Shown here: piece by piece, positions 10,766-28,651 of the stretch
How positions within the stretch are numbered: the stretch's first letter is position 1
Layout of the letters: every line of letters starts with the position of its first letter
From: a virus
Strand: one strand, 5' to 3'
IMG/VR virus record: IMGVR_UViG_3300018049_000042
Coordinates: 1-42,373 of that record
DNA: 42,373 nt
Notes under the pieces: model-generated
The model's input: the letters and a program-made list of their open reading frames with translations, nothing else
Database searches by the model: none
Told to the model about the DNA's origin: nothing
Program-made: the position numbers and the translations under genes

Positions 10766-11139
10766 TAGTTAACTCCTCCGCCACTATGATCAAGCGTTGT
10801 TACACCAGGAGTAACTTGAACTCTACCTTCAAGGATTCTTTCAATTACTGGTTGATTATCACTATCTAAGAAAGAAAGTTCAACGTCATAAACGTATCTA
10901 CCTTTATCTAAAGCTTGTGTTTCTGTATTTGTTAATGAAAGGGTTGCAATACCATCAGTAGGTGGAGTTGCAATAATAGAATTAAAATCAGTTGCGGTTG
11001 CTGATGAATAATTTTTTCTTAATTGGGCTTTAACTGTGTGGTTGGTAAGATCTTTAGCATTACCTTGTTCATCAACTAAATGAATTTCAATGGCCACATC
11101 TGTGCCTTGGTCGATCGTAAATTCTTCGTATTGGGCCAT
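10765..11139 (-). CDS. Small Ig-like/BppU-type structural protein (124 aa)
   Basis: A 124-aa protein starting MAQYEEFTIDQG. The pattern of DLTNHTVKAQLRK, then IATLSLTNTETQAL, then GRYVYDVEL resembles the small Ig-like beta-sandwich proteins of marine T4-like phages and the N-terminal domain of BppU-type baseplate proteins; this is recognition by eye. It is the first gene of the leftward transcript, 51 nt downstream of a TATAAATA late promoter at 11191-11198, and its stop overlaps the start of the giant fibre (TAATG). That coupling suggests a protein made alongside the fibre, such as an attachment or chaperone-like partner; the suggestion is inference from position. Confidence 0.75.
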   Translation of the reverse strand: MAQYEEFTIDQGTDVAIEIHLVDEQGNAKDLTNHTVKAQLRKNYSSATATDFNSIIATPPTDGIATLSLTNTETQALDKGRYVYDVELSFLDSDNQPVIERILEGRVQVTPGVTTLDHSGGGVN

Positions 11140-11190
11140 GAAATCCTCGTTTGTTTCTTTGTCGGTATTACTACCCTGCCGCTTTACCTT

Positions 11191-11198
11191 TATTTATA
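11191..11198 (-). promoter_or_regulatory. T4-type late promoter driving the left fibre operon
   Basis: An exact TATAAATA on the minus strand, 51 nt upstream of the 124-aa gene, the same spacing as at the 5151-5158 site. It lies in the 103-bp divergent intergenic region and faces away from the plus-strand promoter at 11220-11227. Confidence 0.7.
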
Positions 11199-11219
11199 AA
11201 AAAATCGCTTTGTAAATGA

Positions 11220-11227
11220 TATAAATA
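11220..11227 (+). promoter_or_regulatory. T4-type late promoter driving the accessory operon
   Basis: An exact TATAAATA on the plus strand, ending 15 nt before the ATG at 11243 and 27 nt before the GTG at 11255. It is the only exact late promoter in a non-coding position on this strand and stands immediately before the 14-ORF operon, which suggests late expression of the whole cassette. Confidence 0.7.
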
Positions 11228-11242
11228 AAAAAAGTAATTACT

Positions 11243-12637
11243 ATGGAGATATATGTGAAAAAAGAAGTTTTGAAGAATAATTTATTGCGTGGTGGTCCAG
11301 GCGATAAAACAAAACCCGGAGAATATGATACTTCAGCTTGGTTTGCCAAACTTTCCCCAACTGGTAAAAATAAAGAAAAAGATCCAAATTCTATATTAAA
11401 TCTGACTAAGAACAAAAAAATATGGTTTTGTTCTATTCCCTTTACTCAAGTATATTCAGAAATTAATGGCAACTATAAAGCATGTTGCTTTGGTGCGGAT
11501 TCTGGTGTAAAAGTTGAAGATGTTTCATTAAGAGAATGGATGGAAGAAAGCGAATACATGAATAGTATTCGTGAAGAAATGCTTGATCCAAACTCTAATT
11601 TTGAAGCAGTAAATAAAATATGTAAAAGGTGTGTTGATGATGAAAAAAGATATGGAAGATCACGTAGAACAAACTGTATGAAAATGCATACTAATGACTG
11701 GGAACATTGGGATGGAATAGAAAAATCTGCAGATATGTTTAAAGCAAGTGGAATATTTGATTTTGAAGATAGAGTATTTGAAATTCAACTAAAAGTTTTT
11801 GGATCAGAATGTAATTTAGATTGCCATATGTGTATTCATGCTAATTCATCAATGCGCATGGATATGGCTAAAAAGGGTGTATGGGATGAAAAAATTTGGG
11901 GATCTCTCGATAGAAAAAAAGCTATATACGAAAATGTAAGTAAAGATAGAACAAAGGGAATAGTTGAACAGGTTGTAGAATTAGCACCTTATATAAGAAG
12001 CATAAAAATTATTGGTGGTGAACCATTAATTATGAAAAAACAATATGAGTTATTAGATGCTTTAGTTGAGACTGGAGATTCTAAAGATATTAGAATAAAA
12101 TATCAAACTAATTTTACTACAATGGTTGCTGGTAAACATAATTTTTTTAATTATGTCCCTCATTTTAAAAATATTGCTATGGTAGGTTCAGTTGATGGAA
12201 TCGGAAAATCTATAGAATATATGAGAAGAAGAACTAATTGGAATGAGTTAGAAAATAATATCGATATGTGTAATAAGTATCCTAATATTGATGTTGATTT
12301 TAACGGTTTAGTTTCTTTTTTAAGTGTACTTCGTTTTTATGAAGTTATTGATTATTGTAAGGGAAATGATAAGATTCATCAAATAAACTGGGCAATGATT
12401 GAAAGACCAAAACATTTACGTGTTAATAATTTACCAGATAAAATAAAAGAAAATTTATTACCAAAATATAAAGATTGGCCAGATATTCAAGCAGCACTAT
12501 CTAAAGACCCAGAACCAGATATAAGTATTCAAGATACATTTAATTATTTGCTAAAACAAGATAAAGCATATATTGGAACCAAATGGGAAATGCATTTATT
12601 CGATGTATTTCCAGAATTGAAAGAATATTATGAATGA
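11243..12637 (+). CDS. Radical SAM enzyme with N-terminal twitch/SPASM-like Cys domain
   Basis: A 464-aa protein numbered from ATG 11243. The radical SAM core starts at Cys190-x3-Cys194-x2-Cys197 (CNLDCHMC), which binds the [4Fe-4S] cluster that cleaves S-adenosylmethionine, with the GGEP motif at 258-261. Before the core, Cys63, Cys81-Cys82 and Cys127-x2-Cys130 follow a pattern like a SPASM/twitch auxiliary cluster domain, but placed N-terminally, as in the family named twitch domain-containing radical SAM (N_Twi_rSAM). The substrate is unknown. First gene of the accessory operon, overlapping the next by 4 nt (ATGA). Start choice: the GTG at 11255 has GGAG 6 nt upstream, whereas the ATG at 11243 would leave a very short leader without a Shine-Dalgarno, so the true start may be 11255. 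Confidence 0.85.
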   Translation: MEIYVKKEVLKNNLLRGGPGDKTKPGEYDTSAWFAKLSPTGKNKEKDPNSILNLTKNKKIWFCSIPFTQVYSEINGNYKACCFGADSGVKVEDVSLREWMEESEYMNSIREEMLDPNSNFEAVNKICKRCVDDEKRYGRSRRTNCMKMHTNDWEHWDGIEKSADMFKASGIFDFEDRVFEIQLKVFGSECNLDCHMCIHANSSMRMDMAKKGVWDEKIWGSLDRKKAIYENVSKDRTKGIVEQVVELAPYIRSIKIIGGEPLIMKKQYELLDALVETGDSKDIRIKYQTNFTTMVAGKHNFFNYVPHFKNIAMVGSVDGIGKSIEYMRRRTNWNELENNIDMCNKYPNIDVDFNGLVSFLSVLRFYEVIDYCKGNDKIHQINWAMIERPKHLRVNNLPDKIKENLLPKYKDWPDIQAALSKDPEPDISIQDTFNYLLKQDKAYIGTKWEMHLFDVFPELKEYYE

Positions 12638-13845
12638 ATAATGATCTTAAAAATGAACGCAGTTTAGATTATCTAAGAAAACAAACATGGTGGTGTCCAA
12701 GATTATTTGATCATATTTACACAAACACAACTGGAGAATATACCGTTTGCTGTGTTGGAGGATCAAATAAAGAAACAGTATCAAACACGGATCCCCTTGA
12801 TTGGTATTTTGGAAATGTATATCAAAGTTGTCGGAGAGCTGCGCTTGGTTTGGGTGATGATAAAGATAAAAAAATATTAGAGCATCAATGTCAAAGATGT
12901 ATTGAACAAGAAAAAACCCACGGCAACTCTGAAAGAATACAATTATCTAACAAAATAAATGATATTGATGAAGTTATTAAAATCACCAATGATTTTTATA
13001 GAAATGGTAAACCATCTTTACGACAAAATGGTTTAATACTCCAATTTAGACAATTTGGAACTACTTGTAATTTAGATTGTTACATGTGTCATCCATTTAA
13101 TTCATCTGTACGAGAAAAAACTTCAAGAGAAAATAATTATTATGAATTAGTATCATTTGAAAAACCGCAACCTTTTAAAGGAGGAGAAAATCAAAATAGA
13201 TTTTTGGATAATATAGAAAAGATTATTCCATACACAAGAATAATTGTATTACAAGGAGGAGAGCCATTTCTTCTTAAAAAACAATTTGAATATTTAGATA
13301 AAGTAATAGAATCAGATTGGGGTGGAGAAGATATAATATTAGAAATGAATTCTAATCTTACAATATTAGGATCAGGAAATAAAAGCATTTTAGATTATAT
13401 AAAACATTTTGAGTTTCTACAAATCAATATTTCTTTAGATGGGTTTGGAAAATATAACGATTATATTAGAAGGAGATCTTTTTGGAAAGATATTATGTAC
13501 AATTATAATTTGTTAAAAGAATATGAAAATGTACATATGCAAGTATTTTCAACTGTATCACTTTTAAGTATTTTAAGATTTAAAGAATTAGAAAAATGGT
13601 GTAATGAAAACAATTTGGACCAAAGATTATATGTAGTAGATGATCCAAAAGAACTTCATCCAAAAAATTTACCTGATAAAATAAAAAATAAATTGATGCC
13701 TATGTACATTAATAACGAAATAGTTTATAATAGTTTATTATTAGATAGAAACGAAGATGAATATAATAAAGCTATTCAATACATTCGTAAAACTGACGAA
13801 CTATATAAAACAAACTTATTTGAAATATATCCGGAGCTAGCATGA
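12634..13845 (+). CDS. Second radical SAM enzyme of the N-terminal twitch type
   Basis: A 403-aa paralogue of the preceding gene. The core cluster is Cys145-x3-Cys149-x2-Cys152 (CNLDCYMC) and a QGGEP motif follows about 65 residues later. The N-terminal domain has Cys21, Cys39-Cys40, Cys66 and Cys86-x2-Cys89, with the same WxC / GEYTVCC / CQRC-x3-E-x2-G-x-S-x-R layout as its neighbour, so the two arose by duplication and have diverged widely. It overlaps the upstream and downstream genes by 4 nt each, implying translational coupling. The substrate is not predictable. Members of the twitch/SPASM class are known to act on peptides or on sugar and cyclitol carbons. Confidence 0.85.
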   Translation: MNNDLKNERSLDYLRKQTWWCPRLFDHIYTNTTGEYTVCCVGGSNKETVSNTDPLDWYFGNVYQSCRRAALGLGDDKDKKILEHQCQRCIEQEKTHGNSERIQLSNKINDIDEVIKITNDFYRNGKPSLRQNGLILQFRQFGTTCNLDCYMCHPFNSSVREKTSRENNYYELVSFEKPQPFKGGENQNRFLDNIEKIIPYTRIIVLQGGEPFLLKKQFEYLDKVIESDWGGEDIILEMNSNLTILGSGNKSILDYIKHFEFLQINISLDGFGKYNDYIRRRSFWKDIMYNYNLLKEYENVHMQVFSTVSLLSILRFKELEKWCNENNLDQRLYVVDDPKELHPKNLPDKIKNKLMPMYINNEIVYNSLLLDRNEDEYNKAIQYIRKTDELYKTNLFEIYPELA

Positions 13846-14576
13846 AATTATCTTATGGAAACCAAGAAATAGACTTATTTGATAAAAAAATTCCAAGTCA
13901 AGTATTACTTGCTTTATCGGGAGGTTTAGATTCGGCATCATTGTTTTATTTAATCTGTAATAATTTTCCGGAAATTGAAATTATTCCGTATACCGGTTGG
14001 GACAAAACGGCCCCATTTGATTACTTATGTGCTAAAGATATTATTCAATTTATGAAAGAAAAATTTCCAAAGCAAAAAATATTAGAGCATGAAGTTTTTG
14101 AATTTGACATTAATGATAAAGAATGGAGAAATCTTGCTAAAGAAAAATGGGAAGAAGAAAAAGTTATTATTGATGGAAAAAAAGTTGAAAGAGCTAGTTC
14201 TATATCTGGACTCACAAAAATATTAATGAAAAGGCATTTTGAAAACGAACTTAGAAAAAAATGGAATAATGCCTTAATGATTACAGGAATGACTTGTAAT
14301 CCTCCAATAGAAGAACAAAGAAAAAATAATTTTTATGAATTAGCTGAAAGGCGTAGAGATACTAGAAATCAAATGCCATGGTTTAAAACAATATATCAAC
14401 CTTATATAAATATCGATAAGAAGTTTGTAGCGAATGTTTATAAAGAACATGAACTTATGGATACATTATATCCTTTAACAAGTTCGTGTGTAGGTTCAGA
14501 AGAAGAAACAAATTATTTTTCAAAACCATGTGGAAAATGTTTTTGGTGTAAAGAAAAAGAATGGGCGTTTAAATGA
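13842..14576 (+). CDS. PP-loop ATPase, QueC-like with C-terminal Cys cluster
   Basis: A 244-aa protein. Residues 21-32 hold the PP-loop SGGLDSA (Ser26-Gly27-Gly28-Leu29-Asp30-Ser31), which binds and adenylates with ATP in the N-type ATP pyrophosphatase superfamily. The C-terminus has Cys216, Cys230, Cys233 and Cys236 (C-x13-C-x2-C-x2-C), resembling the zinc site of QueC (7-cyano-7-deazaguanine synthase) but with a longer first spacing. The rest does not look like QueC: the middle has TGMTCNPPIEEQRK instead of the QueC substrate motif, and no queD, queE or folE is present in the window. The protein therefore probably activates a carboxylate or carbonyl for amidation, or thiolates, another substrate in this operon's pathway. 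It overlaps both neighbours by 4 nt. Confidence 0.8.
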   Translation: MKLSYGNQEIDLFDKKIPSQVLLALSGGLDSASLFYLICNNFPEIEIIPYTGWDKTAPFDYLCAKDIIQFMKEKFPKQKILEHEVFEFDINDKEWRNLAKEKWEEEKVIIDGKKVERASSISGLTKILMKRHFENELRKKWNNALMITGMTCNPPIEEQRKNNFYELAERRRDTRNQMPWFKTIYQPYINIDKKFVANVYKEHELMDTLYPLTSSCVGSEEETNYFSKPCGKCFWCKEKEWAFK

Positions 14577-15190
14577 CAATAGAAAAAGTATATTCAAAAA
14601 GACAACAGATAAGAATATATCAACAAGATATATATCCATCTGAAACTGATGTGCAAATTTTACTTGAAACAGCATATAAGTTGGTTGCTTCAAAACAAAG
14701 GCTAATGCCATATAGTGTTTATGTTTTAGGTCCAAAACAAAAACAGCTTAAAGAAACTTTTTATGATATGACTACACATACAAATTCATTTAATAATACA
14801 AATGCAAAAGCCCCATATGTGTTAATGTTTACTCCAAGATTAGTATACCCACCCGCATCTATTGCAAAGGCTATGAGAAAAAACGCGGAATTATATAAAA
14901 CATGCGATCCAAATAATTTTGCTGGACCTCAACAAAAAATGGAAACAGCTATAGAAATTGGAATGTTTTGTAAACTACTTACCGGTTTATGCATAGAAAA
15001 AGATATTAATGTTTCTTACTTATTATGCTTTCCAGACCAATTACAAGATAAAAGATGGGACGAAGAATTTAAATTTTTACAAAAACAGCCCGTATTATTT
15101 AGTATGCAATTAGGATATAAAGCTGCTCCTCCAATTCTTGAAGCGCATGAAAAACCTGATGTTGATGAGATTATTAAGTGGGTTGTTTAA
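14573..15190 (+). CDS. Nitroreductase-like flavoprotein
   Basis: A 205-aa protein with the layout of the FMN-dependent nitroreductase family: near the N-terminus Arg10 and Arg14 in a KRxxIRxY motif (phosphate contacts of FMN in the family), a helix LLETAYKL, SKQRLMPYSVYVL at about 40-52 matching the usual S-x-N-x-QP-W-x-V strand, APYVLMF, a helix with E-IGMFCKLLTGLC, and a C-terminal GY motif. Such enzymes reduce or oxidise small molecules with NAD(P)H. In this operon it could supply a redox step in tailoring a product; the substrate is unknown. It overlaps the PP-loop gene by 4 nt and the next gene by 13 nt. The assignment rests on pattern recognition, so moderate confidence. Confidence 0.7.
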   Translation: MTIEKVYSKRQQIRIYQQDIYPSETDVQILLETAYKLVASKQRLMPYSVYVLGPKQKQLKETFYDMTTHTNSFNNTNAKAPYVLMFTPRLVYPPASIAKAMRKNAELYKTCDPNNFAGPQQKMETAIEIGMFCKLLTGLCIEKDINVSYLLCFPDQLQDKRWDEEFKFLQKQPVLFSMQLGYKAAPPILEAHEKPDVDEIIKWVV

Positions 15191-16041
15191 ATATTGTATG
15201 TACTAGTAAACCATGTGATGGATTACTATATTATAGTTATGAATATTGCTGTGCTTTAAATGAAGCCGGTATAGAAACAAATTTAATTATTATTACTAGA
15301 GGAAATTTTAAAGAAGAGGATTATATTAATTCTCTTAAAGAGAAATATATTTACGTTAAATATATTCATATTAATGATTATATTCCTAATGCAGGAGATG
15401 TGACTCTTATATTGGGTAGAAATATGCTTTCTATTCCATACGAAAATATAAATGAATATAATGAAAATCAACGGTTTACATTGCACTTATTATTTGATAT
15501 AATAATATCAGTGTATTCAGAACAAAATGTAAATGGATACACTGAAGCATTAAAATATTTTAACGTTAAATCAACATATGATTTATGTGATCACGAAGTA
15601 TATTTAAAAGGAGTTGGAGAACAATTTGAAAAAATAATTAATTTCGAAATTTATCAAGATCCAGTTGAAAATATATTAGTAGATAATCTTTTCCTTGGAA
15701 CAAATAAAGATTATTATATAACTGCTCAAAAACTTATTAATAATTACGATAATTATGGAATAGTAGCATATGATGATTTTTATGTTGATAAAAGCTTAAA
15801 TAATTTATGGGCTCCAGTAAAAAATTTATTAGGAACATTTAATACATATGTTTATTGTAAAGAACAATTTGATCCTGCTCCAAGAATTATACAGGAATGT
15901 AGATATTACAACATAAATATGATATATGAAAGAGATAAAACTTTACACGATGGAGGATACGTTTATTGGAATAGAGATTTTCAAAAACAAAACCTTAATC
16001 CTATTTTGAAAGCATACGATAATGTACGACAATTGGCATAA
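15178..16041 (+). CDS. GT-B-like glycosyltransferase (GTG start)
   Basis: A 287-aa protein from GTG 15178, which lies within the 3' end of the nitroreductase gene (13-nt overlap). No ATG gives a plausible N-terminus. The N-terminal half has a Rossmann-type beginning (CLNIVCTSKPCDGLLYYSY, a typical GT-B 'SxPxxG' start) and the C-terminal half has FDPAPRIIQE (231-240) near a predicted sugar-nucleotide site, where family members have a conserved P-R-x-x-x-E with Glu240 contacting the donor. A glycosyltransferase is thus likely, although shorter than typical GT-B enzymes of 350-400 aa, and key motifs are not conclusive. It ends 20 nt inside the aminotransferase gene. Acceptor and donor unknown. 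Confidence 0.6.
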   Translation: MGCLNIVCTSKPCDGLLYYSYEYCCALNEAGIETNLIIITRGNFKEEDYINSLKEKYIYVKYIHINDYIPNAGDVTLILGRNMLSIPYENINEYNENQRFTLHLLFDIIISVYSEQNVNGYTEALKYFNVKSTYDLCDHEVYLKGVGEQFEKIINFEIYQDPVENILVDNLFLGTNKDYYITAQKLINNYDNYGIVAYDDFYVDKSLNNLWAPVKNLLGTFNTYVYCKEQFDPAPRIIQECRYYNINMIYERDKTLHDGGYVYWNRDFQKQNLNPILKAYDNVRQLA

Positions 16042-17107
16042 AGAATTTGTAACAAATTTTAGTCATTATATGAAAATATTTAATGACAATATGAATGAAA
16101 ATTATGAAACTGGTATAGAAAAATTAGAAAATGATATATCAAGTTTTAATGGTAGAAAATATTGTGTTGCAGTTGCATCTGCTACTGATGCATTAAAATT
16201 TTCGTTATTAGCACACAATGTTGGACCAGGTGATGAAGTTTTAGTAAGTAATTTTTCGTGGATTTCTTCATCTTCTTGCATTTCCATGGTTGGCGCAACT
16301 CCTGTGTTTTGTGATATTGATTTGAATTCATATCATATAACATTAAAAGAAATTCAAAAAATGTATAGCCCTAAAGTTAAAGCTTTAATCTATACTCATC
16401 TATTTGGCAATATGACTGATACTGCAGAAATAGAAAAATTCTGTAAAGAAAAGAATATTGTTTTTATTGAAGATTCTGCTCAATCATTAGGATCTAGTTT
16501 AAATGGTAGAAAAGCTGGAACTATAGGAAATTGTAGCTCTTATAGTTTTAATTCTAATAAAGTTATTGCTGGAATTAATGGCGGCGGCATTTTTATGACT
16601 GATGAAGAAAGTAAAGCTGAATATGTTAAAGGTCTTCGCCGTCATGGAAAAATTTCTGATTTCGAATTTGTTGGATATAATTCTAAACCATATAGACTTA
16701 ATACTGAAATTATATCTTTTAGATTATCACATTGGAGATCGTGGCAAGATAAAAGACAAGAAATTGCTAAAATATATAATAATGAATTAAATAGTTTACC
16801 AATTATTATGGACAAGGCTTATGATCCAAATTTAGATCATAATTATCACAAATATGTTATAAGGTTCGAAGATCAAGAAACAAGAGATTGGGTAATACAA
16901 GCATTACGTGAATTTGATATTAGATTACAAATTCACTACGATAAACCTCTATCTAAAAATTCTTTATACAATAACATAAAATATAGAAAAAGTAAAGGAA
17001 AAAATGCTGAAATAGCATCTAATACAGTTTTATCATTGCCAATAAATCCATGGTTAACAGAAAGTGAAGTGAAAAATATATGTTCAACAATTCAAACGAT
17101 ATTATAA
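16022..17107 (+). CDS. DegT/DnrJ/EryC1/StrS-type PLP aminotransferase
   Basis: A 361-aa protein of the usual family length (about 360-400). Visible motifs: ASATDALKFSL near residue 54, the GDEVLVSNFSWISS segment, a VFCDID strand, the IEDSAQSLGS motif (Asp-x-x-x, pyridine N contact), and the PLP-lysine region YSFNSNKVIAGINGGG, with the Schiff-base Lys180. RLNTEIISFRLSHW is the usual substrate-binding region. Family members make amino sugars for LPS, O-antigen and aminoglycosides by transamination of keto-sugars or keto-inositols. In this operon it points to an amino-sugar or aminocyclitol product. The start overlaps the upstream gene by 20 nt and its end overlaps the next start by 28 nt. Confidence 0.9.
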   Translation: MYDNWHKEFVTNFSHYMKIFNDNMNENYETGIEKLENDISSFNGRKYCVAVASATDALKFSLLAHNVGPGDEVLVSNFSWISSSSCISMVGATPVFCDIDLNSYHITLKEIQKMYSPKVKALIYTHLFGNMTDTAEIEKFCKEKNIVFIEDSAQSLGSSLNGRKAGTIGNCSSYSFNSNKVIAGINGGGIFMTDEESKAEYVKGLRRHGKISDFEFVGYNSKPYRLNTEIISFRLSHWRSWQDKRQEIAKIYNNELNSLPIIMDKAYDPNLDHNYHKYVIRFEDQETRDWVIQALREFDIRLQIHYDKPLSKNSLYNNIKYRKSKGKNAEIASNTVLSLPINPWLTESEVKNICSTIQTIL

Positions 17108-17751
17108 ACAATGGATTACGTATGCTTAAAAGAAAGCATATTAATATTGATATTACTCATAGGTGCCCTTTAGAATGTCCAAGGTGTCAAAGACAATCTG
17201 CCTTTGTCCATAAAGGACTTAAAGTTCCTGGAAAAGATTTACCTTTTGATGAATTTAAAAAAATAGTTGATCACTTTACCCATATAAACTTTTGCGGACA
17301 AGTTTCAGATCCAGTTCATCATCCAAAATTTATAGACTTTTTAAGTCATATTCATTCTTTTTATAATACTGAAACACCAAAATCTACATCTGTACATCAC
17401 GCAACTGGTTATAAGAAAATGGAATGGTATATTAAAGCATTTCAAGCAAACCCTAGAGCTCGTTGGTGGTTTGGAATAGATGGTTTACCAAAAGATTCTC
17501 ACAAGTATAGAATAAACCAAGACGGTGAAAAACTTTTTGAAATTTGTAAAGAAGCAAAAAATCATTTAGAACAATTGCCTGTTTGGCAATATATTGTATT
17601 TAACTATAATGAACATACAATTGAAGAAGCACATAGTATGGCAAAAGAAGCGGGAGTACAATTTATGTTAGTTAATTCATCAAGATGGCTGGGTGAACAT
17701 GATCCATATAGACCATCTAAAGAACATAGCTTGAGTTTACACGATGGGTAG
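17080..17751 (+). CDS. Radical SAM enzyme, N-terminal catalytic part (split gene, part 1)
   Basis: A 223-aa product. Cys29-x3-Cys33-x2-Cys36 (HRCPLECPRC) is the radical SAM cluster, followed by a partial barrel and a DGLPKDSHKYRINQDG segment, with NSSRW near residue 200. It ends abruptly in HDG-stop where such proteins normally continue into a SPASM-like domain; that domain follows in the next ORF in frame +1. Either the gene is split into two subunits coupled by an 8-nt overlap, or the two ORFs are joined by +1 frameshifting at GGG-TAG, or there is a sequence error. The annotated ATG is 28 nt inside the previous gene; the ATG at 17122, just before the cluster, is a plausible alternative with an equally weak ribosome site. 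Confidence 0.75.
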   Translation: MFNNSNDIINNGLRMLKRKHINIDITHRCPLECPRCQRQSAFVHKGLKVPGKDLPFDEFKKIVDHFTHINFCGQVSDPVHHPKFIDFLSHIHSFYNTETPKSTSVHHATGYKKMEWYIKAFQANPRARWWFGIDGLPKDSHKYRINQDGEKLFEICKEAKNHLEQLPVWQYIVFNYNEHTIEEAHSMAKEAGVQFMLVNSSRWLGEHDPYRPSKEHSLSLHDG

Positions 17752-18109
17752 AGAAATTCCAGATATAGATGAAAATAGTGAATTAGATCCTAAATGTTTT
17801 GATAGGCGACAAGAAGCTTTTGCCTTAACAAACAGAATGGAAGTTATTCCGTGTTGTTGGCTTGATACTCAAGTAAATAGACAGAATTTTGAATATCAGC
17901 AACTATTGTTAGCTAGTAGATTAGAAGATTATGATTCTGTAGAAGAAATCTTTTTAACAGAAGAATGGATTGAATTTCGTAATAATTTAAGTAAAGGAAA
18001 AGGATTTCCATTATGCCATTTAGTATGTAGAAAAAGAAATTCGCCTCAACATAAAAAAGAAATATTTTTAGAGTCTGAGCAAACAAAAGGATATGTTAAA
18101 TCAACATGA
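17744..18109 (+). CDS. SPASM-like C-terminal part of the split radical SAM enzyme (part 2)
   Basis: A 121-aa ORF beginning ATGGGTAG, so its start overlaps the TAG stop of part 1 by 8 nt. It has Cys18, Cys37-Cys38 (VIPCCWLDT), an EEWIEFRNNLSKG helix and Cys91-x3-Cys95 (LCHLVC). The order CC, W-x-x-F, C-x3-C is what the auxiliary-cluster (SPASM) domain of radical SAM enzymes shows at the C-terminus. Without the catalytic half it would have no activity of its own, so it belongs with part 1. It overlaps the next gene by 4 nt (ATGA). If a separate polypeptide, it should bind the first half; if not, the two ORFs make one protein of about 344 aa. Confidence 0.7.
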   Translation: MGREIPDIDENSELDPKCFDRRQEAFALTNRMEVIPCCWLDTQVNRQNFEYQQLLLASRLEDYDSVEEIFLTEEWIEFRNNLSKGKGFPLCHLVCRKRNSPQHKKEIFLESEQTKGYVKST

Positions 18110-18924
18110 AAACTAGACGTGAATTACTTGAAGATGGATATAAAGGAGTTGATTTTTATTTAACAAAATCTTGTAATAAGTCATGTCATTATTGTACAGC
18201 ATGGACTTTGGAAATGAGAAATCTTCATGTTGATATGGATTTTTTACGACATACACTTGAATGTTTTAAAGGGCATAAAATAATTTTTAATATATTGGGC
18301 GGTGAACCAGGCCTAGTTAAAAATTTAACAGAAGTCATTAATATGATAAAAGAGTATGATACATTTGTTGTATCAATTCTTTCTAATTCATTTGTACGTA
18401 AAAGATATTCTGAAGTTTTAGAAGATCCAACTATATATTATATGGAACATTTAGTTTTAGATTTCCACGAAGATAAAATTGAAAAACTTGGCAACTTTGA
18501 ATTTTTTGAAAAAAATAATTTGAATAATTATAACGTAGTAATTATGACACCAAATTATTTTAAATACAGAGAAAATTTTGATTTAAGTATATTAGATCAT
18601 GAAAATACACAGTTTAAAGAATTTAATTCAAGATCTCCTGATTGGACTGAAACAGATCAGGCGCCTGAGTTTGATAGAAGAATGTGCGCTGCATTTCCAA
18701 AGGTTCCGGTAATTGATTTTGAAATAAAAAAATTAAGACATTGTAGTAAAAAAGTAATTAATGGATCTAGACAATTTGATATTACACCAGAAAATATTGA
18801 AAAAATGATGAATTATGAATTATTTGAATTTGAAGAATACTGTAAAAAATGTACAGAGTTTATTGAAAAAAGATTTCCAGAAGATATTTTAGATATTGTA
18901 GCAGCTGGAGCAGTTATGAAATGA
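18106..18924 (+). CDS. Radical SAM enzyme with C-terminal Cys-rich tail
   Basis: A 272-aa protein. Cys23-x3-Cys27-x2-Cys30 (CNKSCHYC) is the SAM-cleaving cluster, and LGGEPG at about 64-69 is the SAM-binding strand. The C-terminal third has Cys residues in MCAAFPKVPVIDF, LRHCSKK and EEYCKKCTEF, compatible with an auxiliary iron-sulfur cluster. Sequence similarity to the twitch pair is limited to the core motifs, and the auxiliary cysteines are on the C-terminal side here. The substrate is unknown. It overlaps its two neighbours by 4 nt each. Confidence 0.85.
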   Translation: MKTRRELLEDGYKGVDFYLTKSCNKSCHYCTAWTLEMRNLHVDMDFLRHTLECFKGHKIIFNILGGEPGLVKNLTEVINMIKEYDTFVVSILSNSFVRKRYSEVLEDPTIYYMEHLVLDFHEDKIEKLGNFEFFEKNNLNNYNVVIMTPNYFKYRENFDLSILDHENTQFKEFNSRSPDWTETDQAPEFDRRMCAAFPKVPVIDFEIKKLRHCSKKVINGSRQFDITPENIEKMMNYELFEFEEYCKKCTEFIEKRFPEDILDIVAAGAVMK

Positions 18925-19934
18925 AATACTTAATTGTCAATGGATGTAGTTTTTCTGCATATACATATGGCCGCAATACTAATTTAGAAGATCGATCATC
19001 AAAACACAATTTTTTAAAAAGTATAAATTACACTCCTTGGCCTGTTCATTTAGCCAAAAAATTAAATATGAAATTAATTAATCTAGCGATTGGTGGTTCT
19101 GGAAATAACGGAATTTATAATCGTACTCTTGATTTATTAAATTATATAGATCATAAAGATATTGGTTTAGTTATACATATGTGGACTGAATCAAATAGGC
19201 GTGATTATGAAGCTCAAGAAACTGAACCTCATTTGATTAATCCAGAATATAAAAATGATTTACCAGAAAAAATGAAAAAATCTGCGTATAAGCATGGTAA
19301 CAACAATTGGTCGCCTGGAAATTACGAAGATTGGATTCATAATTCTTTACGCTATTTTTACATGTTTCAAATCTTATGTGAAAATTATAATATACCATAT
19401 GTACAAATTCAAGGGATGAATTTATATTGGAATTGGTGGAGAGTTACAAGCCAAGATAAGCTTAATTTGATGAATGGAGATTTTCAAGAAAATGAAAACT
19501 TTAAAACAATGATTCCATTCCGTGAAAGGTCTGGTGATAAACGCACAAATTTTACAATTGTAAAAAATTTACATGCACATAATTGGCCTTACAAATCAAA
19601 AAAAGAATTAATTGAGTATTTACCTAACAATATGTATTATGATAAAATTAAAAATTTTATAAATTGGCCAATTGATAAACCTAATAATATAACATGGAAT
19701 AAAAATGATATTACATTTAGCGATCCACCAGAAACACTTAAGTTAAAATGCGAAAAATATGGTTTAGAATTTATACAGACAGAAATAGAAAATAATATTC
19801 AACAAAGATTTACTAACTATGCTAGTAGAAAAAAAACTTGGATAAATTCTAATAGTGATACTATTGGTGGAGATAGTCATCCAAATAATGAAACTCATAT
19901 AAAAATAGCGGATTATATTTATGAAAATCTTTAG
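18921..19934 (+). CDS. SGNH/GDSL hydrolase-like protein
   Basis: A 337-aa protein. The N-terminus MKYLIVNGCSFSAYTYG resembles block I of SGNH hydrolases, with candidate nucleophile Ser10. NLAIGGSGNNGI (54-65) matches block II (Gly/Asn oxyanion-hole region). Near the C-terminus GGDSHPNNETH includes Asp318 and His320 as candidate catalytic residues, one residue closer than the usual DxxH. The middle 200 residues are an Asn/Trp/Tyr-rich insertion. Family members act as esterases or acyltransferases on sugars and lipids. Such proteins occur in other phages as virion-surface or polysaccharide-modifying enzymes. It overlaps the carbamoyltransferase gene by 14 nt. The assignment is from motif pattern only. 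Confidence 0.65.
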   Translation: MKYLIVNGCSFSAYTYGRNTNLEDRSSKHNFLKSINYTPWPVHLAKKLNMKLINLAIGGSGNNGIYNRTLDLLNYIDHKDIGLVIHMWTESNRRDYEAQETEPHLINPEYKNDLPEKMKKSAYKHGNNNWSPGNYEDWIHNSLRYFYMFQILCENYNIPYVQIQGMNLYWNWWRVTSQDKLNLMNGDFQENENFKTMIPFRERSGDKRTNFTIVKNLHAHNWPYKSKKELIEYLPNNMYYDKIKNFINWPIDKPNNITWNKNDITFSDPPETLKLKCEKYGLEFIQTEIENNIQQRFTNYASRKKTWINSNSDTIGGDSHPNNETHIKIADYIYENL

Positions 19935-21414
19935 TGCATCATTTAGTCCTCATGATCATAATACATATGATGGTTTATTTCATAATCAAATAGAAAGATA
20001 TAGTAGATTAAAACATAATCTACCTAAGTTAGATGAAAACGTATATCCATTTAATGGTGTGTTTATACCACAAAAACATTCTAACGAAGCTGGTATAAAA
20101 TTCTATGAAGAATATTATAAACCTGAAAACCATGAAGTGTTTGCTTTCACAACTACTATTGGTGGTGTTAATCAAATAACACCATATAAAATTTCTAAAG
20201 AATATCTTGATTTTAAACCCACTAATCTATGGGATTATAAAATGATTAATAACACATATTATATTGATCATCATCAATCACATGCTGCATATGCTTATTT
20301 AACTTCTGGATTTGAAGAATCAGATATATTAGCAATTGACGGAAGAGGATATAATTTTAATTGTATTTTTATTGATAAAAATCAAAAAATTATAGATTTA
20401 TCTAGCAAAATAAATATTGGTGAACTTTGGAATTTTATCTCTCAATATTTAGGTTTCGGATTTTTAGGTGCAGGAAAAGTAATGGGTCTTTCTGCTTACG
20501 GCGCTTTAAAAGATTCTATCTATCTTATGTTAGAAGAATTACATCAAAACCGAATTGATAAAGATGATTTTATACGTATGGTAGATTCACAAAATGTTTC
20601 ACCAGATTCAATTGCACATACATTACAAGTCTTTACAGAAGATATTATAAGAGAACATGTATATCCTCTGCAATCATCAACAAATTTATGTATTGCAGGA
20701 GGAGTTGCTTATAATGGATATGTGAATGAAATGTTTTTTGAAAAATACGAAAACGTGCATGTACCGCCTGCAGCTGGAGATGAAGGACAGGCATTAGGGA
20801 CATATATGCATGCTGATTATATGTTAAATAATAACATTCATACTCCAAAAACATATGCTGGAAAAAAATATAATTTTAAAGGTAAAGAAAAAGTTAATTA
20901 CAAAGAAATAGCACAAGCAATTGCAGATGGTGCAATTGTTGGTTGGTTTCAAGATGAATCAGAAAGTGGAAATAGAGCTTTAGGAAATAGAAGTATATTA
21001 GCAGATCCAAGAAGGCATGATATTAAATTTGTAATTAATAATACTATAAAATTACGTGAAGATTTTAGGCCATTCGCACCAGCAGTCTTAGAAGAGTGGT
21101 ATGAATATTTTTTTGATACACATAAACCAAGTCCATATATGAGTAGAATTGTAAAAGTTAAACATAAAGATAAAATTCCGGGTGTAACTCACATAGATAA
21201 TACTGCAAGAATACAAACAGTAAATGAAAGTGATAATCCTAAATTTTATAAGTTAATCACTGATTTTTTTTATGCAACTGCAATGCCTATGTTATTAAAT
21301 ACAAGCTTTAATTGTCAAGAACCAATTGTAGAAACACCAGAAGAAGCAATTGCCACTTTTAATAAAACAGGAATGGATCTATTAGTAATTAATGATTATA
21401 TTATAAGAAAATGA
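19921..21414 (+). CDS. O-carbamoyltransferase (NodU/CmcH/TobZ family)
   Basis: A 497-aa protein. The HHQSHAAYAY motif (His117, His118, His121) is the metal-binding element of the first domain. IDGRGYN, LGFGFLGAGKVMGLSAYG and IAGGVAYNG follow, then ESGNRALGNRSILADPR (347-363), DFRPFAP and LNTSFNCQEPIVETP, the diagnostic motifs of the YrdC-like/Kae1-like carbamoyltransferase fold. Family members use carbamoyl phosphate and ATP to make a carbamoyl adenylate and transfer the carbamoyl group to hydroxyls of sugars, for example Nod factor (NodU), cephamycin (CmcH) and tobramycin (TobZ). It overlaps the methyltransferase gene by 4 nt. Function is confident at family level; the acceptor is unknown. 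The length fits the family (about 500-570 aa). Confidence 0.92.
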   Translation: MKIFSASFSPHDHNTYDGLFHNQIERYSRLKHNLPKLDENVYPFNGVFIPQKHSNEAGIKFYEEYYKPENHEVFAFTTTIGGVNQITPYKISKEYLDFKPTNLWDYKMINNTYYIDHHQSHAAYAYLTSGFEESDILAIDGRGYNFNCIFIDKNQKIIDLSSKINIGELWNFISQYLGFGFLGAGKVMGLSAYGALKDSIYLMLEELHQNRIDKDDFIRMVDSQNVSPDSIAHTLQVFTEDIIREHVYPLQSSTNLCIAGGVAYNGYVNEMFFEKYENVHVPPAAGDEGQALGTYMHADYMLNNNIHTPKTYAGKKYNFKGKEKVNYKEIAQAIADGAIVGWFQDESESGNRALGNRSILADPRRHDIKFVINNTIKLREDFRPFAPAVLEEWYEYFFDTHKPSPYMSRIVKVKHKDKIPGVTHIDNTARIQTVNESDNPKFYKLITDFFYATAMPMLLNTSFNCQEPIVETPEEAIATFNKTGMDLLVINDYIIRK

Positions 21415-22139
21415 TTATAGAAAAAGAAATATGGAATGTGTTATGGAAAGCTTTTAACGAAGAAAAGCTTGATCCATATTCATATTTAAAAGTTACTAAA
21501 CCATTATTAGAAGATAAAATTAATAAACATCTATTACAAATGTTATGGACTATAGCATACGAAAAAGAAATGGATATTGTTCATTTTCTTGATAGTATGG
21601 GCCCAAGCCAAATTGAATCTAAAACATGGTTAGTTGAAAAATTATCTTTAGTTATTCCAACATTTTTTGAATTAAATGAGAAAATAAGAGTTCAACTATT
21701 AGGAGGTTGGTTTGGATCTCCATTATCTATAATGCTAAAACAAAATTCAGATCAAATCGAATCAATTGATAACATTGATATAGATCCTAAAACGAAAAAG
21801 TTTTTTGAAAATTTTATGTCAATTTATAATATTGCAGGAAATCATTATTGTCAAAACATACTCGATCCAATTATGGATGACGATAAAACACATGTAGTTA
21901 TTAATACTTCTTCTGAACATATGCCTAGCTTACCTAAAATATTAGAAAATAAAAATTATAGAGAAAATACAATATTTGCTTTACAAAGTAATAATATGTT
22001 TCATGTAAATGATCATATTAATTGTGTTGAAAATGAAGATGAATTATTAGAAAAATCAGGAATTAAACAAAAAATATATAAAGGATCACTTGATATGCCT
22101 AATGGTTATAAAAGGTTTATGGTTATAGGAAAATGTTAA
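21411..22139 (+). CDS. Class I SAM-dependent methyltransferase-like protein
   Basis: A 242-aa protein. After a mainly helical N-terminal 80 residues, VQLLGGWFGSPLS (Gly98-Gly99-Trp-Phe-Gly102) fits motif I of a Rossmann methyltransferase, DNIDIDPK (Asp123, Asp125) fits the acidic motif II that binds the SAM ribose, and THVVINTSSEHM fits motif IV. No substrate motif is recognisable. It resembles unassigned marine-phage methyltransferases that appear next to carbohydrate genes. It overlaps the carbamoyltransferase by 4 nt and the next gene by 7 nt. Likely a late methylation step in the operon's pathway; family-level confidence is moderate. Confidence 0.7.
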   Translation: MIIEKEIWNVLWKAFNEEKLDPYSYLKVTKPLLEDKINKHLLQMLWTIAYEKEMDIVHFLDSMGPSQIESKTWLVEKLSLVIPTFFELNEKIRVQLLGGWFGSPLSIMLKQNSDQIESIDNIDIDPKTKKFFENFMSIYNIAGNHYCQNILDPIMDDDKTHVVINTSSEHMPSLPKILENKNYRENTIFALQSNNMFHVNDHINCVENEDELLEKSGIKQKIYKGSLDMPNGYKRFMVIGKC

Positions 22140-22804
22140 AAATATTTTGTTTATATTATGAAGGAAAATATTCTTATGATTATGTTGAAAAACTTGAAAG
22201 AGGAATATCTAAAAATACGACTATTGATTTTGAATTTTTTTGTTATAAACCAAAAAGAAAATCGCATTGGCACAAATTAGAATTTTTTGATCCAACATTT
22301 ACTGAAACACTCGATGATGTTATAGTTATGGATATAGATCAAGTTATTGTTAACAATATTGACGACATGTTATCATATCCAATTAAAGATAATGAATTAT
22401 TAACATATTCAAGTACAGTAAGTACACTACCGATAAATGGTGGCTTTTATAAATTTAAAGGAAATGCGTTTACTGATCTAACTGATAAATGGTCAAAAAA
22501 TAAAGAGTATTGGGAATCATATTATTATAATAATGGCACTGTAAATATTAAAGGACACGGCGAACAAAATTTTGTTTTTGATAATGTAGAAAACATAGTA
22601 ACTCTACCAGATAATTGGATGGTACGATACTACAATGATGATGCTTTAAATTATCAAATGCAATTAGAATATTGTAAATTATACAATAAAGAATTTATGA
22701 TTATGGATGAAGAAATTGATAAAGATATAAAAATTGTGCATTTTACTAATAACAATTATATACATAAATCTAATACATCTTGGATAAGAAAGCATTGGAC
22801 ATGA
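22133..22804 (+). CDS. Small GT-A glycosyltransferase (DxD)
   Basis: A 223-aa protein. VIVMDIDQVIV places Asp67-Ile68-Asp69 as the DxD metal motif of a GT-A glycosyltransferase (GT8-like). GGFYKFKGN follows, then HGEQNFVFDN and a C-terminal IVHFTNNNY strand with a conserved His, matching the HxxGxxKPW-like end of GT8 enzymes loosely. The N-terminal signature LKIFCLYYEGKY is the usual first beta strand. No signal peptide, so it is probably cytoplasmic. It is shorter than many GT8 enzymes but similar in size to phage glycosyltransferases. It overlaps the next glycosyltransferase start by 4 nt (ATGA). Confidence 0.75.
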   Translation: MLKIFCLYYEGKYSYDYVEKLERGISKNTTIDFEFFCYKPKRKSHWHKLEFFDPTFTETLDDVIVMDIDQVIVNNIDDMLSYPIKDNELLTYSSTVSTLPINGGFYKFKGNAFTDLTDKWSKNKEYWESYYYNNGTVNIKGHGEQNFVFDNVENIVTLPDNWMVRYYNDDALNYQMQLEYCKLYNKEFMIMDEEIDKDIKIVHFTNNNYIHKSNTSWIRKHWT

Positions 22805-23397
22805 GAATTATTTGTGTAAACACTGGAAATAAATTTAGTGAATGGTATGTTGATAATTTAAAACATATGATTGATAATTTTTCTGGTTTACAATATGAAG
22901 AATTTGTGGTAATAAGAGATGATGAATATGAAGGAGTTTTTAATAAGCTTCTTATGTTCGATAGATATAGAGATGGCCAAAATATATATTTTGACTTAGA
23001 CATAATTATTACAGGAGACTGTAATAATCTTGTAAGAAAAAATTTTACTTTATGCCATGCATGGTGGAGAAAGCCATTTCACACACCACTTAATAGTAGT
23101 ATAATGTCATGGTCTGGCGATTACTCTCACATCTATAAAGGATTTGAGAAAGATCCAAATTATTTTATGATTGAATATTCAAGAGGAATAGATCAATTTA
23201 TTTATGAAAAATTTGCTGGAACATTCAATCAATATTTACGAAGTGATAAGTATTGTTCTTATGAATTTATAGAACAAAAAGAAAAAATAAATGTAATTGA
23301 TTATAACGTTTACTTATTTAATCAATCGTATGAAACTATGTTGAATCCTAAGATTCTTCCGCCTCAACTGGGGGAGTTTCTTTTACAATATCAATAG
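22801..23397 (+). CDS. Second small GT-A glycosyltransferase (DxD), last gene of the operon
   Basis: A 198-aa product from ATG 22801, which overlaps the previous TGA by 4 nt like its neighbours; the longer frame beginning at a TTG at 22780 is not needed. MRIICVNTGNKFSEWYVDNL is a typical GT-A first strand and IYFDLDIIITG gives Asp65-Leu66-Asp67 as the DxD motif. LNSSIMSW and a following GIDQFIYE resemble the middle of sugar-nucleotide-dependent transferases. The C-terminal 15 codons lie in a 50-bp overlap with the convergent structural gene, ending at 23397 within its coding region. It and the preceding gene resemble each other in size and motif and may act successively on one acceptor. Confidence 0.75.
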   Translation: MRIICVNTGNKFSEWYVDNLKHMIDNFSGLQYEEFVVIRDDEYEGVFNKLLMFDRYRDGQNIYFDLDIIITGDCNNLVRKNFTLCHAWWRKPFHTPLNSSIMSWSGDYSHIYKGFEKDPNYFMIEYSRGIDQFIYEKFAGTFNQYLRSDKYCSYEFIEQKEKINVIDYNVYLFNQSYETMLNPKILPPQLGEFLLQYQ

Positions 23398-23836
23398 CTA
23401 TAAACAAAGCTTCCCTTGAACTTTTCGCTTTACGTAAAGCCACTTTAGCTTCTCTATTAGTGCTTCTTTTAACTTCGCTTAATTCAAATAAAAATAATTT
23501 TAAAGTGAATAAATGCTGAGTATCACGACCATCTTCTACATTATCATTAAATAAATCTTCTAAAAGATTTCTATACTCAGCTTCATCATTTTTTCTAAAA
23601 ATATTTCTAGCTAAATCTTCGAAGTTTTTTGAAAAATCGACTTTATACTTTTCGCTTGCTTCATCAATTTTCTTTTTAGTCCAGCCAGCTTCTCTAAGAG
23701 ATTTCCATGCTGGATCATTATTATCTTCAAATAAATTATAAATTCGACGAATATCATTTTCGTCAACCCATTCTACTAACACTAAATCTCTGTTATTAGA
23801 ATATCTTGCGTTAATTACGTTTTCTTTTGTAAACAT
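23348..23836 (-). CDS. Conserved small phage protein of unknown function
   Basis: About 162 aa from the ATG at 23836, chosen because it overlaps the upstream stop as TAATG; an in-frame ATG at 23863 would add nine residues. The protein is acidic and mainly helical: KVDFSKNFEDLARNIF, EAEYRNLLEDLFN, and a Lys/Arg-rich segment (REAKVALRKAKSSREALF). No domain is recognised. It is last in the fibre/baseplate transcript and its 3' end overlaps the convergent glycosyltransferase by 50 bp. Its place at the end of the late operon suggests an assembly or structural accessory role, not established. Confidence 0.7.
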   Translation of the reverse strand: MFTKENVINARYSNNRDLVLVEWVDENDIRRIYNLFEDNNDPAWKSLREAGWTKKKIDEASEKYKVDFSKNFEDLARNIFRKNDEAEYRNLLEDLFNDNVEDGRDTQHLFTLKLFLFELSEVKRSTNREAKVALRKAKSSREALFIAIDIVKETPPVEAEES

Positions 23837-24915
23837 TAGTATTGATCCATCTTTAAAGTCCAATATTGTTGAGCCGTTGCAGTTCCAACGGGAAATTCTT
23901 GTGAACGATAATCATTAGCATTCACAAACCTTCTTTTTAAATCACCTGATACTGATGTGATCCTAGTATTAGCAATTACACTTCCTAGCGTTGTACCTGT
24001 ATAAGTAGCCGTTCCTGCTCCAGCGCCATCCGCATCATATGCTAATCTATAACGAATTCTTGACCCAGTATGAGCAGACGCAGCATATTTCATGTAACTT
24101 TTTAATATATCATCTAGCTGAGCTAAAGTATACTCCCTAATATCATTAGGTCCTGCTACTATATAAGCAAGCGCAAGTTCTTCAGTACCACCATAATTTA
24201 AATCATCTGATGCTAATGTAATACTTGGCTCACTTATATTATTTGCTTGTAACAAATAATAGTTACTTACTATTTCAGAAATATCTTGTGTAGTACCAGA
24301 AGCTCCAATTGTTGCTGCTGCACCTGTTGGAGCTGTAGGGGTATCTGTAACATTATATGCACTTTGATCTGCGCGAGTATCAGTAAAAATTGCATCTGTT
24401 GCAACAGCAGTATAACCAGCTAACGTTGTTGCAGTATGCACTCTATATGTTCCAGGCTGACCCACAGATGCCGTTATAGTATCAATTGCTGGCAAAATAA
24501 ATGTATCTAACATATCTGTTTGAGACATAGATCTAAGATCTCCATTTCCATCATAATAAAGTGGAAACCTTACAGAATTAATGTCAGAGGGTTGACTTGC
24601 AGCTGTACGTGTTTCATCAATATAATCATATTGAATTGGTGTAATAATTGTTGGTTCGCCTGTTGTAGCTTCGGCGGGATAAGTAGTTGCATTTGTTGCA
24701 GAGGTACCAGTTTGCCATCTATCATCAATCATATATTGATTCGTACCTTCAACATCAATATGATTGGTTGCACCAGTAGTTACAACTGATAATGTTACAG
24801 TTGGGTCTGTACCATACAAATATCTACATCTATCTTTAATATAAGTTATTTCGGCAGTACTCATTTGCTTGAGATCTCCGCCGTTTAAAACTTTAAGTGG
24901 TGTTACTACAGCCAT
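23836..24915 (-). CDS. Structural protein (359 aa), likely tail/fibre associated
   Basis: A 359-aa protein beginning MAVVTPLKVLNGGDLKQMST. It is rich in Thr, Ala, Asn and Tyr with short beta-prone blocks, contains an ALAYIVAG and a YTLAQLDDILKSYMKYA helix, and ends in RFVNANDYRSQEF...WTLKMDQY. That style fits virion proteins of T4-like marine phages, but no specific family is recognised. The upstream gap (24916-24955) contains GGAG 13 nt from the ATG but no exact late promoter. Its stop overlaps the start of the next gene by one base. I infer a tail or fibre accessory protein. Confidence 0.7.
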   Translation of the reverse strand: MAVVTPLKVLNGGDLKQMSTAEITYIKDRCRYLYGTDPTVTLSVVTTGATNHIDVEGTNQYMIDDRWQTGTSATNATTYPAEATTGEPTIITPIQYDYIDETRTAASQPSDINSVRFPLYYDGNGDLRSMSQTDMLDTFILPAIDTITASVGQPGTYRVHTATTLAGYTAVATDAIFTDTRADQSAYNVTDTPTAPTGAAATIGASGTTQDISEIVSNYYLLQANNISEPSITLASDDLNYGGTEELALAYIVAGPNDIREYTLAQLDDILKSYMKYAASAHTGSRIRYRLAYDADGAGAGTATYTGTTLGSVIANTRITSVSGDLKRRFVNANDYRSQEFPVGTATAQQYWTLKMDQY

Positions 24916-28438: not shown

Positions 28439-28651
28439 CTATAGTTTTTGCATAATTTTTTGGAGCATATCTTTTATCTCCGTTACTTCTTCTTTTAAGC
28501 TTTCAATATCTTTTTCCTGATCAAGTTTTTTCTGTTTTGCTTTTCGAATGTTTTCAATTGTTTCATTGCTATTTATATAGTTAAACACACCGGTATTTTC
28601 ATTTTTTACTAGACCAGGCCTGCCAGCTACTTGTCTTTTATTGTCAATCAT
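28439..28651 (-). CDS. Small coiled-coil protein (70 aa)
   Basis: A 70-aa protein ending in a Lys/Glu/Leu-rich helix of about 45 residues, ending EEVTEIKDMLQKIMQKL, with heptad hydrophobics typical of a trimeric or dimeric coiled coil. The N-terminal 25 residues are basic and Gly/Asn-rich. It is sandwiched between the 549-aa structural protein (3-bp gap) and the long fibre (12-bp gap), so it is co-expressed with them. A role in fibre assembly or attachment is reasonable from position; the family is not identified. Confidence 0.7.
   Translation of the reverse strand: MIDNKRQVAGRPGLVKNENTGVFNYINSNETIENIRKAKQKKLDQEKDIESLKEEVTEIKDMLQKIMQKL

Follow-up and report, generated by a model that had tools for sequence, protein, structure and literature searches.

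A candidate late glycan-tailoring operon with radical SAM genes in the host recognition cluster of a marine T4-like phage

The 42,373-nucleotide (nt) stretch analysed here, hereafter the window, is the whole of the viral IMG/VR record IMGVR_UViG_3300018049_000042. It carries on the plus strand, at positions 11243-23397, a run of 14 open reading frames (ORFs) encoding radical S-adenosylmethionine (SAM) proteins, glycosyltransferase-like proteins and other tailoring-type enzymes. This operon is real and recurring, and is a variant of a published type of phage island. We give an even chance to the following reading: a marine T4-like phage expresses late, from its hypervariable host recognition cluster, an operon for glycan tailoring and transfer, whose product goes to a surface glycan, most likely the lipopolysaccharide (LPS) of the host. 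The observations that lead to this reading are the gene content and close packing of the operon, its site, a late-promoter motif in front of it, the recurrence of much of it at this site in further phages, and the other genes that the nearest relative, phage C48C1, has there.

Results

Organization and promoter of the operon

All 13 junctions of the operon overlap, by 4, 4, 4, 13, 20, 28, 8, 4, 4, 14, 4, 7 and 4 nt in order, as a first-pass annotation of this DNA had described, provided that ORF14 starts at the ATG at 22801. Some of the longer overlaps hinge on the start codon chosen; with the longer TTG start at 22780 proposed by the ORF finder for ORF14, the last overlap becomes 25 nt. Among the minus-strand genes of the window, only 3 of 16 same-strand junctions overlap (ORFs of at least 80 amino acids (aa); 3 of 17 if a 70-aa ORF at 28439-28651 is included). 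Across 98 loci, consisting of the window, the Pelagibacter phage Mosig and 96 loci fetched from IMG/VR by similarity to the twitch proteins described below, and hence biased to phages bearing them, junctions between two genes of operon families overlap in 66% of 515 cases, versus 38% of 476 between two other genes, both percentages being inflated by the use of longest-start ORFs. The first-pass annotation had deduced from the overlaps that the genes are made in fixed proportion, which does not follow from them. It was right about orientation, the operon being antisense to the genes on both sides. GC content is 27.6% in the operon versus 34.5% in the rest of the window. The arrangement is unlikely to be an assembly chimera or artefact, because the window is over its full length 99.94% identical to part of a 104.8-kb record, and a 67.7-kb record whose sample code differs encodes ORF1 and ORF11 with 100% amino-acid identity.

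The motif TATAAATA, which we take to be a T4-type late promoter -10 element, was found on the plus strand at 11220-11227, 16 nt before ORF1, where a late promoter proper to the operon had been predicted. This motif occurs 8 times in the window for an expected mean of 12.1, and so is not in excess. Six of the 8 sites are correctly oriented and precede a start by at most 60 nt (binomial p 4e-9, uniform background); when the 33 upstream zones were shuffled internally, they contained 0.5 sites on average and none of 2000 shuffles reached 6. Since the motif precedes ORF1, the operon is probably transcribed late, together with the virion genes. A scan of positions 10700-24000 detected sigma-70-like sites at chance level (93 vs 96.2 expected) and 7 terminator-like sites vs 3.0 expected, five of them on the plus strand inside the operon and none at its 3' end.

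A recurring operon at a variable site

The first-pass annotation had suggested looking for the same gene order in T4-like phages. Much of it was found in the Pelagibacter isolate Mosig and in two contigs, G003 (170.8 kb) and G005 (61 kb), and C48C1 has other genes. In Mosig (EXVC030M, MT647606), genes Mosig_00082-00094 include homologues of 11 of the 14 genes (ORF4-ORF14) at the same site and in similar order, on one strand with all junctions overlapping and between homologous flanking genes. Mosig differs from the window by two extra genes, the GT8-like Mosig_00091 and the sub-threshold nitroreductase Mosig_00093, by the positions of the DegT and SGNH genes, and by a stretch of about ten further minus-strand genes that separates the operon from the homologue of the left-flank gene. 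Contigs G003 and G005 carry the order GTx-rSa-SPc-SGNH-DegT-small ORF-rS9-Carb-MT-GT-GT-GT at the same place, antisense to virion genes (rSa, SPc and rS9 designate the families of ORF7, ORF8 and ORF9), and a second rSa-SPc pair is present in the G005 operon. Adjoining the Mosig operon is a second, minus-strand tailoring set (Mosig_00072-00081, L040:6551-12804), annotated as Asp/Arg hydroxylase, taurine dioxygenase, flavin mononucleotide reductase, aminotransferase, desaturase, methylase and others; similar stretches lie beside the operon in loci L005, L013, L026 and L033.

On the left, the operon of the window is flanked by a minus-strand homologue of L-shaped tail-fibre assembly proteins (10765-11139; phrog_1084, unknown, 9.5e-25; phrog_3304, L-shaped tail fibre assembly, 8.1e-22). 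Its homologues lie on the same side in Mosig, G003, G005 and C48C1; it directly adjoins the operon only in the window, other genes intervening in Mosig, G003 and G005. The gene on the right (23348-23863, minus strand), convergent with ORF14, is a homologue of Mosig_00095, and by position and sequence one and the same family directly follows the operon in the window, Mosig, G003 and G005. Judged by the terminase, the nearest relative is C48C1 (70.7%; the next is at 48%), a phage recorded without a host, in which only two other genes, in the direction of the virion genes, stand between the homologues of both flanking genes; by eye they resemble a glycosyltransferase and a 2-oxoglutarate oxygenase, and no family model supports either. 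Because the nearest terminase relative has these two other genes at the site, the operon can be regarded as a swappable cassette.

Against Mosig, G003, G005, G004 and G007, ORFs 5, 6, 9 and 11 are 46-65% identical and ORF7 35-55%, and ORF14 is 54-56% identical in the three relatives where it was found. The flanking virion proteins reach 26-42% identity (matches of at least 100 aa; two or three relatives had them, the search for virion genes in the pieces of G004 and G007 extending to 21 kb), and ORFs 4, 8, 10, 12 and 13, with only 25-41%, are no better conserved than these flanks. The conserved core suggests that the operon was exchanged between phage lineages, or that its core enzymes are under stronger constraint.

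In contig G002, VrlC homologues lie at 53840-59478, the operon at 64736-76890, and homologues of the C48C1 head-tail adaptor and head closure genes, presumably gp13 and gp14, at 99405 and 100156. By these positions, the operon lies within the host recognition cluster, whose borders are VrlC and gp14. The island contains tail fibres (5162-10765 and 24956-28426 of the window match tail-fibre PHROGs) and glycosyltransferases (ORF5 by its model, ORF13, and a 1090-aa protein in G002), and its content varies between related phages, as seen for C48C1 and the window. A 2020 paper on pelagimyophages (PMC7029224) describes a VrlC-gp14 island with tail fibres, glycosyltransferases and radical SAM cassettes, considers it a hotspot for accessory genes and reads it as serving O-chain modification. 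The cluster is presented there as non-syntenic, whereas in the four phages compared here one sub-operon has retained its position and, in large part, its gene order. These published islands, together with the 11 Mosig homologues, contradict the earlier claim that no such combination has been described in phages. The operon itself and a separate SPASM protein were not found described among the papers listed by the literature searches, bioRxiv preprints and most subscription journals being outside the search, and the announcement of Mosig (PMC7892664) contained none of six terms looked for in it.

Two further features of the island were observed. The 1090-aa protein (L050:16090-19362, or G002:C1:96090-99362) matches glycosyltransferase and methyltransferase PHROGs in different parts, and its gene stands just before the neck genes. 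The large fibre-like genes of the window contain internal repeats, visible as off-diagonal matches, at 27475-27637 (98% over 94 bp, 69 bp apart) and 6558-8640 (85% over 163 bp, 1920 bp apart).

Among 50,697 phage records, relatives of ORF5 and ORF9 at E <= 1e-5 occur in a single one, Mosig. More distant resemblance is found in the clusters of HTVC008M and cyanophages, which share with the operon a NodU-type carbamoyltransferase, about 30% identical to ORF11, and in HTVC008M a methyltransferase with UDP-glucose/GDP-mannose dehydrogenase genes nearby. Radical SAM and glycosyltransferase genes are reported to be enriched in Tasman Sea viral contigs (PMC7150976).

Radical SAM proteins and a split enzyme

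The first-pass annotation had assigned five ORFs to the radical SAM enzymes. Four of them (ORFs 1, 2, 7 and 9) carry the CxxxCxxC motif, and ORF8 does not; most of its other enzyme assignments held. ORF1 (11243-12637) is a twitch-domain radical SAM protein with the motif CNLDCHMC and more conserved cysteines at its N-terminus (NF033640, 292 bits for a cut-off of 170; Pfam Radical_SAM 25.2 bits, under the cut-off of 29.5). The CxxxCxxC cysteines are invariant in the alignment of its family (A1), as they are in the ORF7 family, and its structural model (predicted local distance difference test score, pLDDT, 86.9) retrieved radical SAM structures with both Foldseek and VIA. ORF2 (12634-13845), which shares 29% identity with ORF1, likewise belongs to the twitch-domain type (NF033640, 239 bits) and is, with 44.2 bits, the only one of the four to pass the Radical_SAM cut-off. 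ORF9 (18106-18924) scores 28.0 bits on the same model and matches a radical SAM PHROG; its family adjoins the carbamoyltransferase in 23 of 29 relatives, three more being at contig edges, and no relative was found in 72,556 plasmid records.

ORF7 (17080-17751) corresponds to a radical SAM catalytic half, with CxxxCxxC, matches to radical SAM PHROGs and a sub-cut-off Pfam Radical_SAM score of 19.5 bits. ORF8 (17744-18109), a SPASM/twitch-like half, matches no family in Pfam, PHROGs or NCBIfam when searched alone. The two are best read as one enzyme in two parts, one catalytic and the other of the iron-sulphur (Fe-S) type, because four cysteines of the ORF8 family (18, 37, 38 and 95) are invariant in the absence of CxxxCxxC and because the SPc domain is naturally fused to rSa in two relatives, L027 and L076. 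A frameshift or pseudogene was ruled out by these fusions, by the separate genes of Mosig with the same 8-nt overlap, and by the occurrence of both orders elsewhere (31 SPc-rSa and 10 rSa-SPc). An SPc neighbour was present for 41 of 52 rSa genes; one gene was at a contig edge, and the 10 without a direct SPc neighbour, including the L027 fusion and one longer protein (L076:18693), argue against strict pairing. In four contigs (L005:13333-13656, L006, L007 and L036) a small gene, by eye of the MazG pyrophosphohydrolase type, was seen between SPc and rSa.

Other enzymes of the operon

ORF3 (13842-14576) has an invariant SGGxDS motif, four C-terminal cysteines, a PF06508 match (1.2e-6, 28.7 bits for a cut-off of 22) and weak PP-loop matches of its profile in the PDB. 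On the QueC equivalog model it scores 23.8 bits, far under the cut-off of 150.3, and we therefore describe it as a predicted QueC-like PP-loop ATPase and not as QueC itself. ORF4 (14573-15190), homologous to Mosig_00082, has no Pfam family when searched alone, and the profile of its alignment (A2) matches a putative nitroreductase (3gfa, 1.7e-8). For ORF5 (15178-16041), Pfam, PHROGs and the PDB profile search gave no family. Its model (pLDDT 90.3) matches BshA best (3mbo_C, Z 15.2, root-mean-square deviation 4.1, 248 of 287 residues aligned) and thus shows a GT-B fold over the whole protein. Epimerases with this fold are also among the matches; on the model, ORF5 is a probable glycosyltransferase. 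Its homologue Mosig_00083 (L040:13412-14278) is annotated as a molybdenum cofactor enzyme, probably wrongly.

ORF6 (16022-17107) is a pyridoxal-phosphate aminotransferase of the DegT/DnrJ/EryC1 family (Pfam 6.5e-80; PDB profile 7b0d, 1.3e-58). An acyl carrier protein domain on the Mosig DegT protein was considered by eye and was not supported. ORF11 (19921-21414) is a NodU-type carbamoyltransferase (Pfam 4.6e-63 and 2e-24; phrog_1601 1.8e-102). The remaining assignments are weaker. ORF10 (18921-19934) is SGNH hydrolase-like by motifs read by eye on alignment A7, Pfam giving only a sub-threshold DUF6071; ORF12 (21411-22139) resembles Rossmann methyltransferases, its profile (A8) matching KsgA and spermidine-synthase types (best 4.5e-4), with no family above cut-off in Pfam or PHROGs; ORF13 (22133-22804), a homologue of Mosig_00092, is glycosyltransferase-like (phrog_1962, 8.1e-8), and so may be the small ORF14 (22801-23397; phrog_1962 at 0.0036 only; 54% identical to Mosig_00094 over 138 aa). 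A hydropathy scan of the operon proteins showed no clear transmembrane helix, the sole window above 1.6 being at the PP-loop of ORF3.

A dispersed twitch module

A scan with short peptide patterns detected ORF1 relatives in 358 viral stretches, of which the best 80 were kept. Two such patterns, one of which exceeded its counterpart in the viral scan by one residue, retrieved a single weak relative (25%) from 84,980 prokaryote species genomes, a scan that covered the twitch family only and in which short patterns can miss distant relatives. These counts suggest that the twitch radical SAM family is restricted to viruses. The 50,697 phage records contain three weak ORF1 relatives (23-29% identity).

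ORFs 1-3 belong to a second module, which sits among other genes in related phages. In many of them the twitch genes occur with a nitroreductase-like protein and ISO, by eye cysteine-hydrolase-like, between gp19 and uvsW; in the alternative setting they accompany PP-loop and rSa/SPc genes between PAAR/gp25 and HesB/gp5. The labels gp19, uvsW, gp25, PAAR and ISO were given by eye, Pfam checks covering HesB, a dehydrogenase, an epimerase and a GT8. ISO itself gave nothing in the PDB profile search, and the members tried had no Pfam or PHROGs family. At most three genes away from the twitch/PP-loop module, L061 encodes an Fe-S assembly protein (L061:7851-8159, PF01521), and L062, L064, L107 and L110 have a member of this family there; it may provide the radical SAM enzymes with their clusters.

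Genes scattered over isolated positions in related phages had been named as evidence that would speak against a coherent operon. In six of the seven contigs longer than 60 kb (the seventh, L003, carries the same operon and was omitted), the carbamoyltransferase, DegT, PP-loop and rSa genes were all present; in two of the six they lay at two or three separate places, so that scattering was encountered in part, but the four components still occurred together in every contig. Translations also revealed fusions of PP-loop and twitch proteins (L024), of twitch protein and carbamoyltransferase (L019), and of PP-loop protein and rSa (L059, L060). In L026:6504-8651, GTx is fused to a degenerate twitch protein in which no CxxxCxxC was seen, and some twitch copies may therefore be non-catalytic partners.

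Discussion

BtrN is a twitch radical SAM enzyme acting on a sugar, and DesII and DegT enzymes take part in sugar pathways. The operon shares this radical SAM and DegT logic, and DesII is among the structural matches of ORF1; it differs in that the additional cysteine domain lies at the N-terminus in ORF1 and forms a protein of its own in ORF8. From the gene identities we infer the following route, chemistry and target included. Starting from a host nucleotide sugar, a radical SAM enzyme would, in the manner of BtrN or DesII, oxidise, rearrange or otherwise prepare the sugar, which the DegT enzyme would then aminate. The PP-loop ATPase, the SGNH enzyme, the carbamoyltransferase and the methyltransferase would add amide, acyl, carbamoyl and methyl groups, the amide and acyl groups less certainly, before the GT-B enzyme and the two small glycosyltransferases hand the sugar to a surface glycan. 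Host LPS is proposed as the target because published work reads the island in this way (PMC7029224). Decorated LPS would mask receptors, so that rival phages are kept out and progeny are not bound to debris. In relatives, genes for nucleotide sugars stand next to the operon or within it, namely a UDP-glucose/GDP-mannose dehydrogenase (L103), a short-chain dehydrogenase/reductase epimerase (Mosig) and a sub-threshold mannose-6-phosphate-isomerase-like protein (L100). They agree with this route, and the fusions linking its parts would count in its favour.

Several results weigh against transfer to a surface glycan as the function. The 14 genes had been taken for a complete-looking pathway, yet none for nucleotide-sugar synthesis, nor for glycan flipping or polymerising, was recognised among them. 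The identification of the methyltransferase, the SGNH enzyme and ORF14 is weak. In the Mosig stretch, no gene corresponding to ORF1-3 turned up, so the core operon can apparently do without them, and carbamoyltransferase relatives, present in 144 of the 50,697 phage records, are common in marine phages without the rest of the operon. The best Foldseek match of ORF1 is a thioether-forming peptide enzyme (5why, E 1.0e-4). In other phages the twitch module stands among apparent tail-tube and baseplate genes, which suits a virion target as well, and for keeping rivals out, an early promoter would be more fitting than a late-type one.

The virion itself may be what is decorated, a possible but doubtful explanation in which a sugar on tail-fibre or baseplate proteins alters receptor binding or hides the particle. 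The operon stands beside tail-fibre assembly and fibre genes in the window, Mosig, G003 and G005, its late-type promoter motif is common to structural genes, and elsewhere the twitch module lies between gp23/gp19 and uvsW or between PAAR/gp25 and gp5 (names by eye). However, no co-varying fibre feature was found, and the pelagimyophage paper (PMC7029224) describes the site as a hotspot for accessory genes. The fibre at 5162-10765 (1867 aa) contains 66 DS dipeptides vs 20.6 expected; as a glycan target this repeat was rejected, since the Mosig fibres inspected lack the enrichment and in G003 it is about twofold. We hold it unlikely, but worth stating, that marine T4-like phages evolved a pathway of their own, built on the split radical SAM enzyme and on a radical SAM family confined to viruses, for a sugar or decoration not known from cells; its parts, dispersed among virion genes, would have been merged here into a late operon with its product on the virion.

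Modification of a protein or peptide by the radical SAM enzymes, as for ribosomally synthesised and post-translationally modified peptides, with the glycosyltransferases as incidental neighbours, is less plausible still. All Foldseek matches of ORF1 at E <= 0.001 are indeed peptide-modifying enzymes (sactipeptide thioether synthase 5why/5wgg and epimerase EpeE 8ai4), and SkfB (Z 10.2) and SuiB (Z 10.1) are among its VIA matches, but there BlsE (Z 10.5) and viperin (Z 10.3) tie with them, DesII is listed at Z 9.1, and all matches concern the radical SAM core. With Foldseek favouring peptide enzymes and VIA tying nucleoside, sugar and peptide enzymes, we discarded the ORF1 fold as a guide to substrate class. 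No precursor peptide was recognised among the listed ORFs of at least 60 aa, and the fusions join twitch proteins to the carbamoyltransferase and the PP-loop ATPase. We find it quite improbable that the genes are an auxiliary metabolic set aiding the host without any glycan or surface role. The Fe-S assembly protein near the twitch module in several contigs, and the published observation that one T4-like viral genome holds Fe-S assembly genes as well as 12 radical SAM genes (PMC5332604), would fit this; the glycosyltransferase, DegT and carbamoyltransferase genes, the placement beside fibre genes and the other genes in C48C1 do not. Most improbable of all is a pathway for nucleotide, DNA or RNA modification. 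ORF3 exceeds the Pfam QueC cut-off, ORF9 touches the QueE model (27.7 bits, cut-off 260) and a DNA alpha-glucosyltransferase (Z 13.5, for a best match of 15.2) is among the GT-B matches of ORF5, where it is no better than many others. On the other side stand the equivalog score of ORF3, for which a 7-deazaguanine pathway for DNA or tRNA was rejected despite the Pfam match, and the absence of any recognised QueD or FolE (Pfam and PHROGs on all 14 ORFs, NCBIfam on 10 of 14).

What is surprising in this operon is a twitch family nearly absent from cells in our scan, a split radical SAM enzyme, and co-occurring parts that are dispersed among virion genes in other phages. For glycan tailoring in the host recognition cluster, the vague "LPS-related" label of a hypervariable island is replaced by a defined, recurring operon with a testable isolate, Mosig on Pelagibacter HTCC1062, reportedly the only strain that it lysed among those tried (PMC9004378). 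The operon also draws attention to a radical SAM family that the scans encountered almost exclusively in viruses and whose members may carry out reactions so far unseen in cells.

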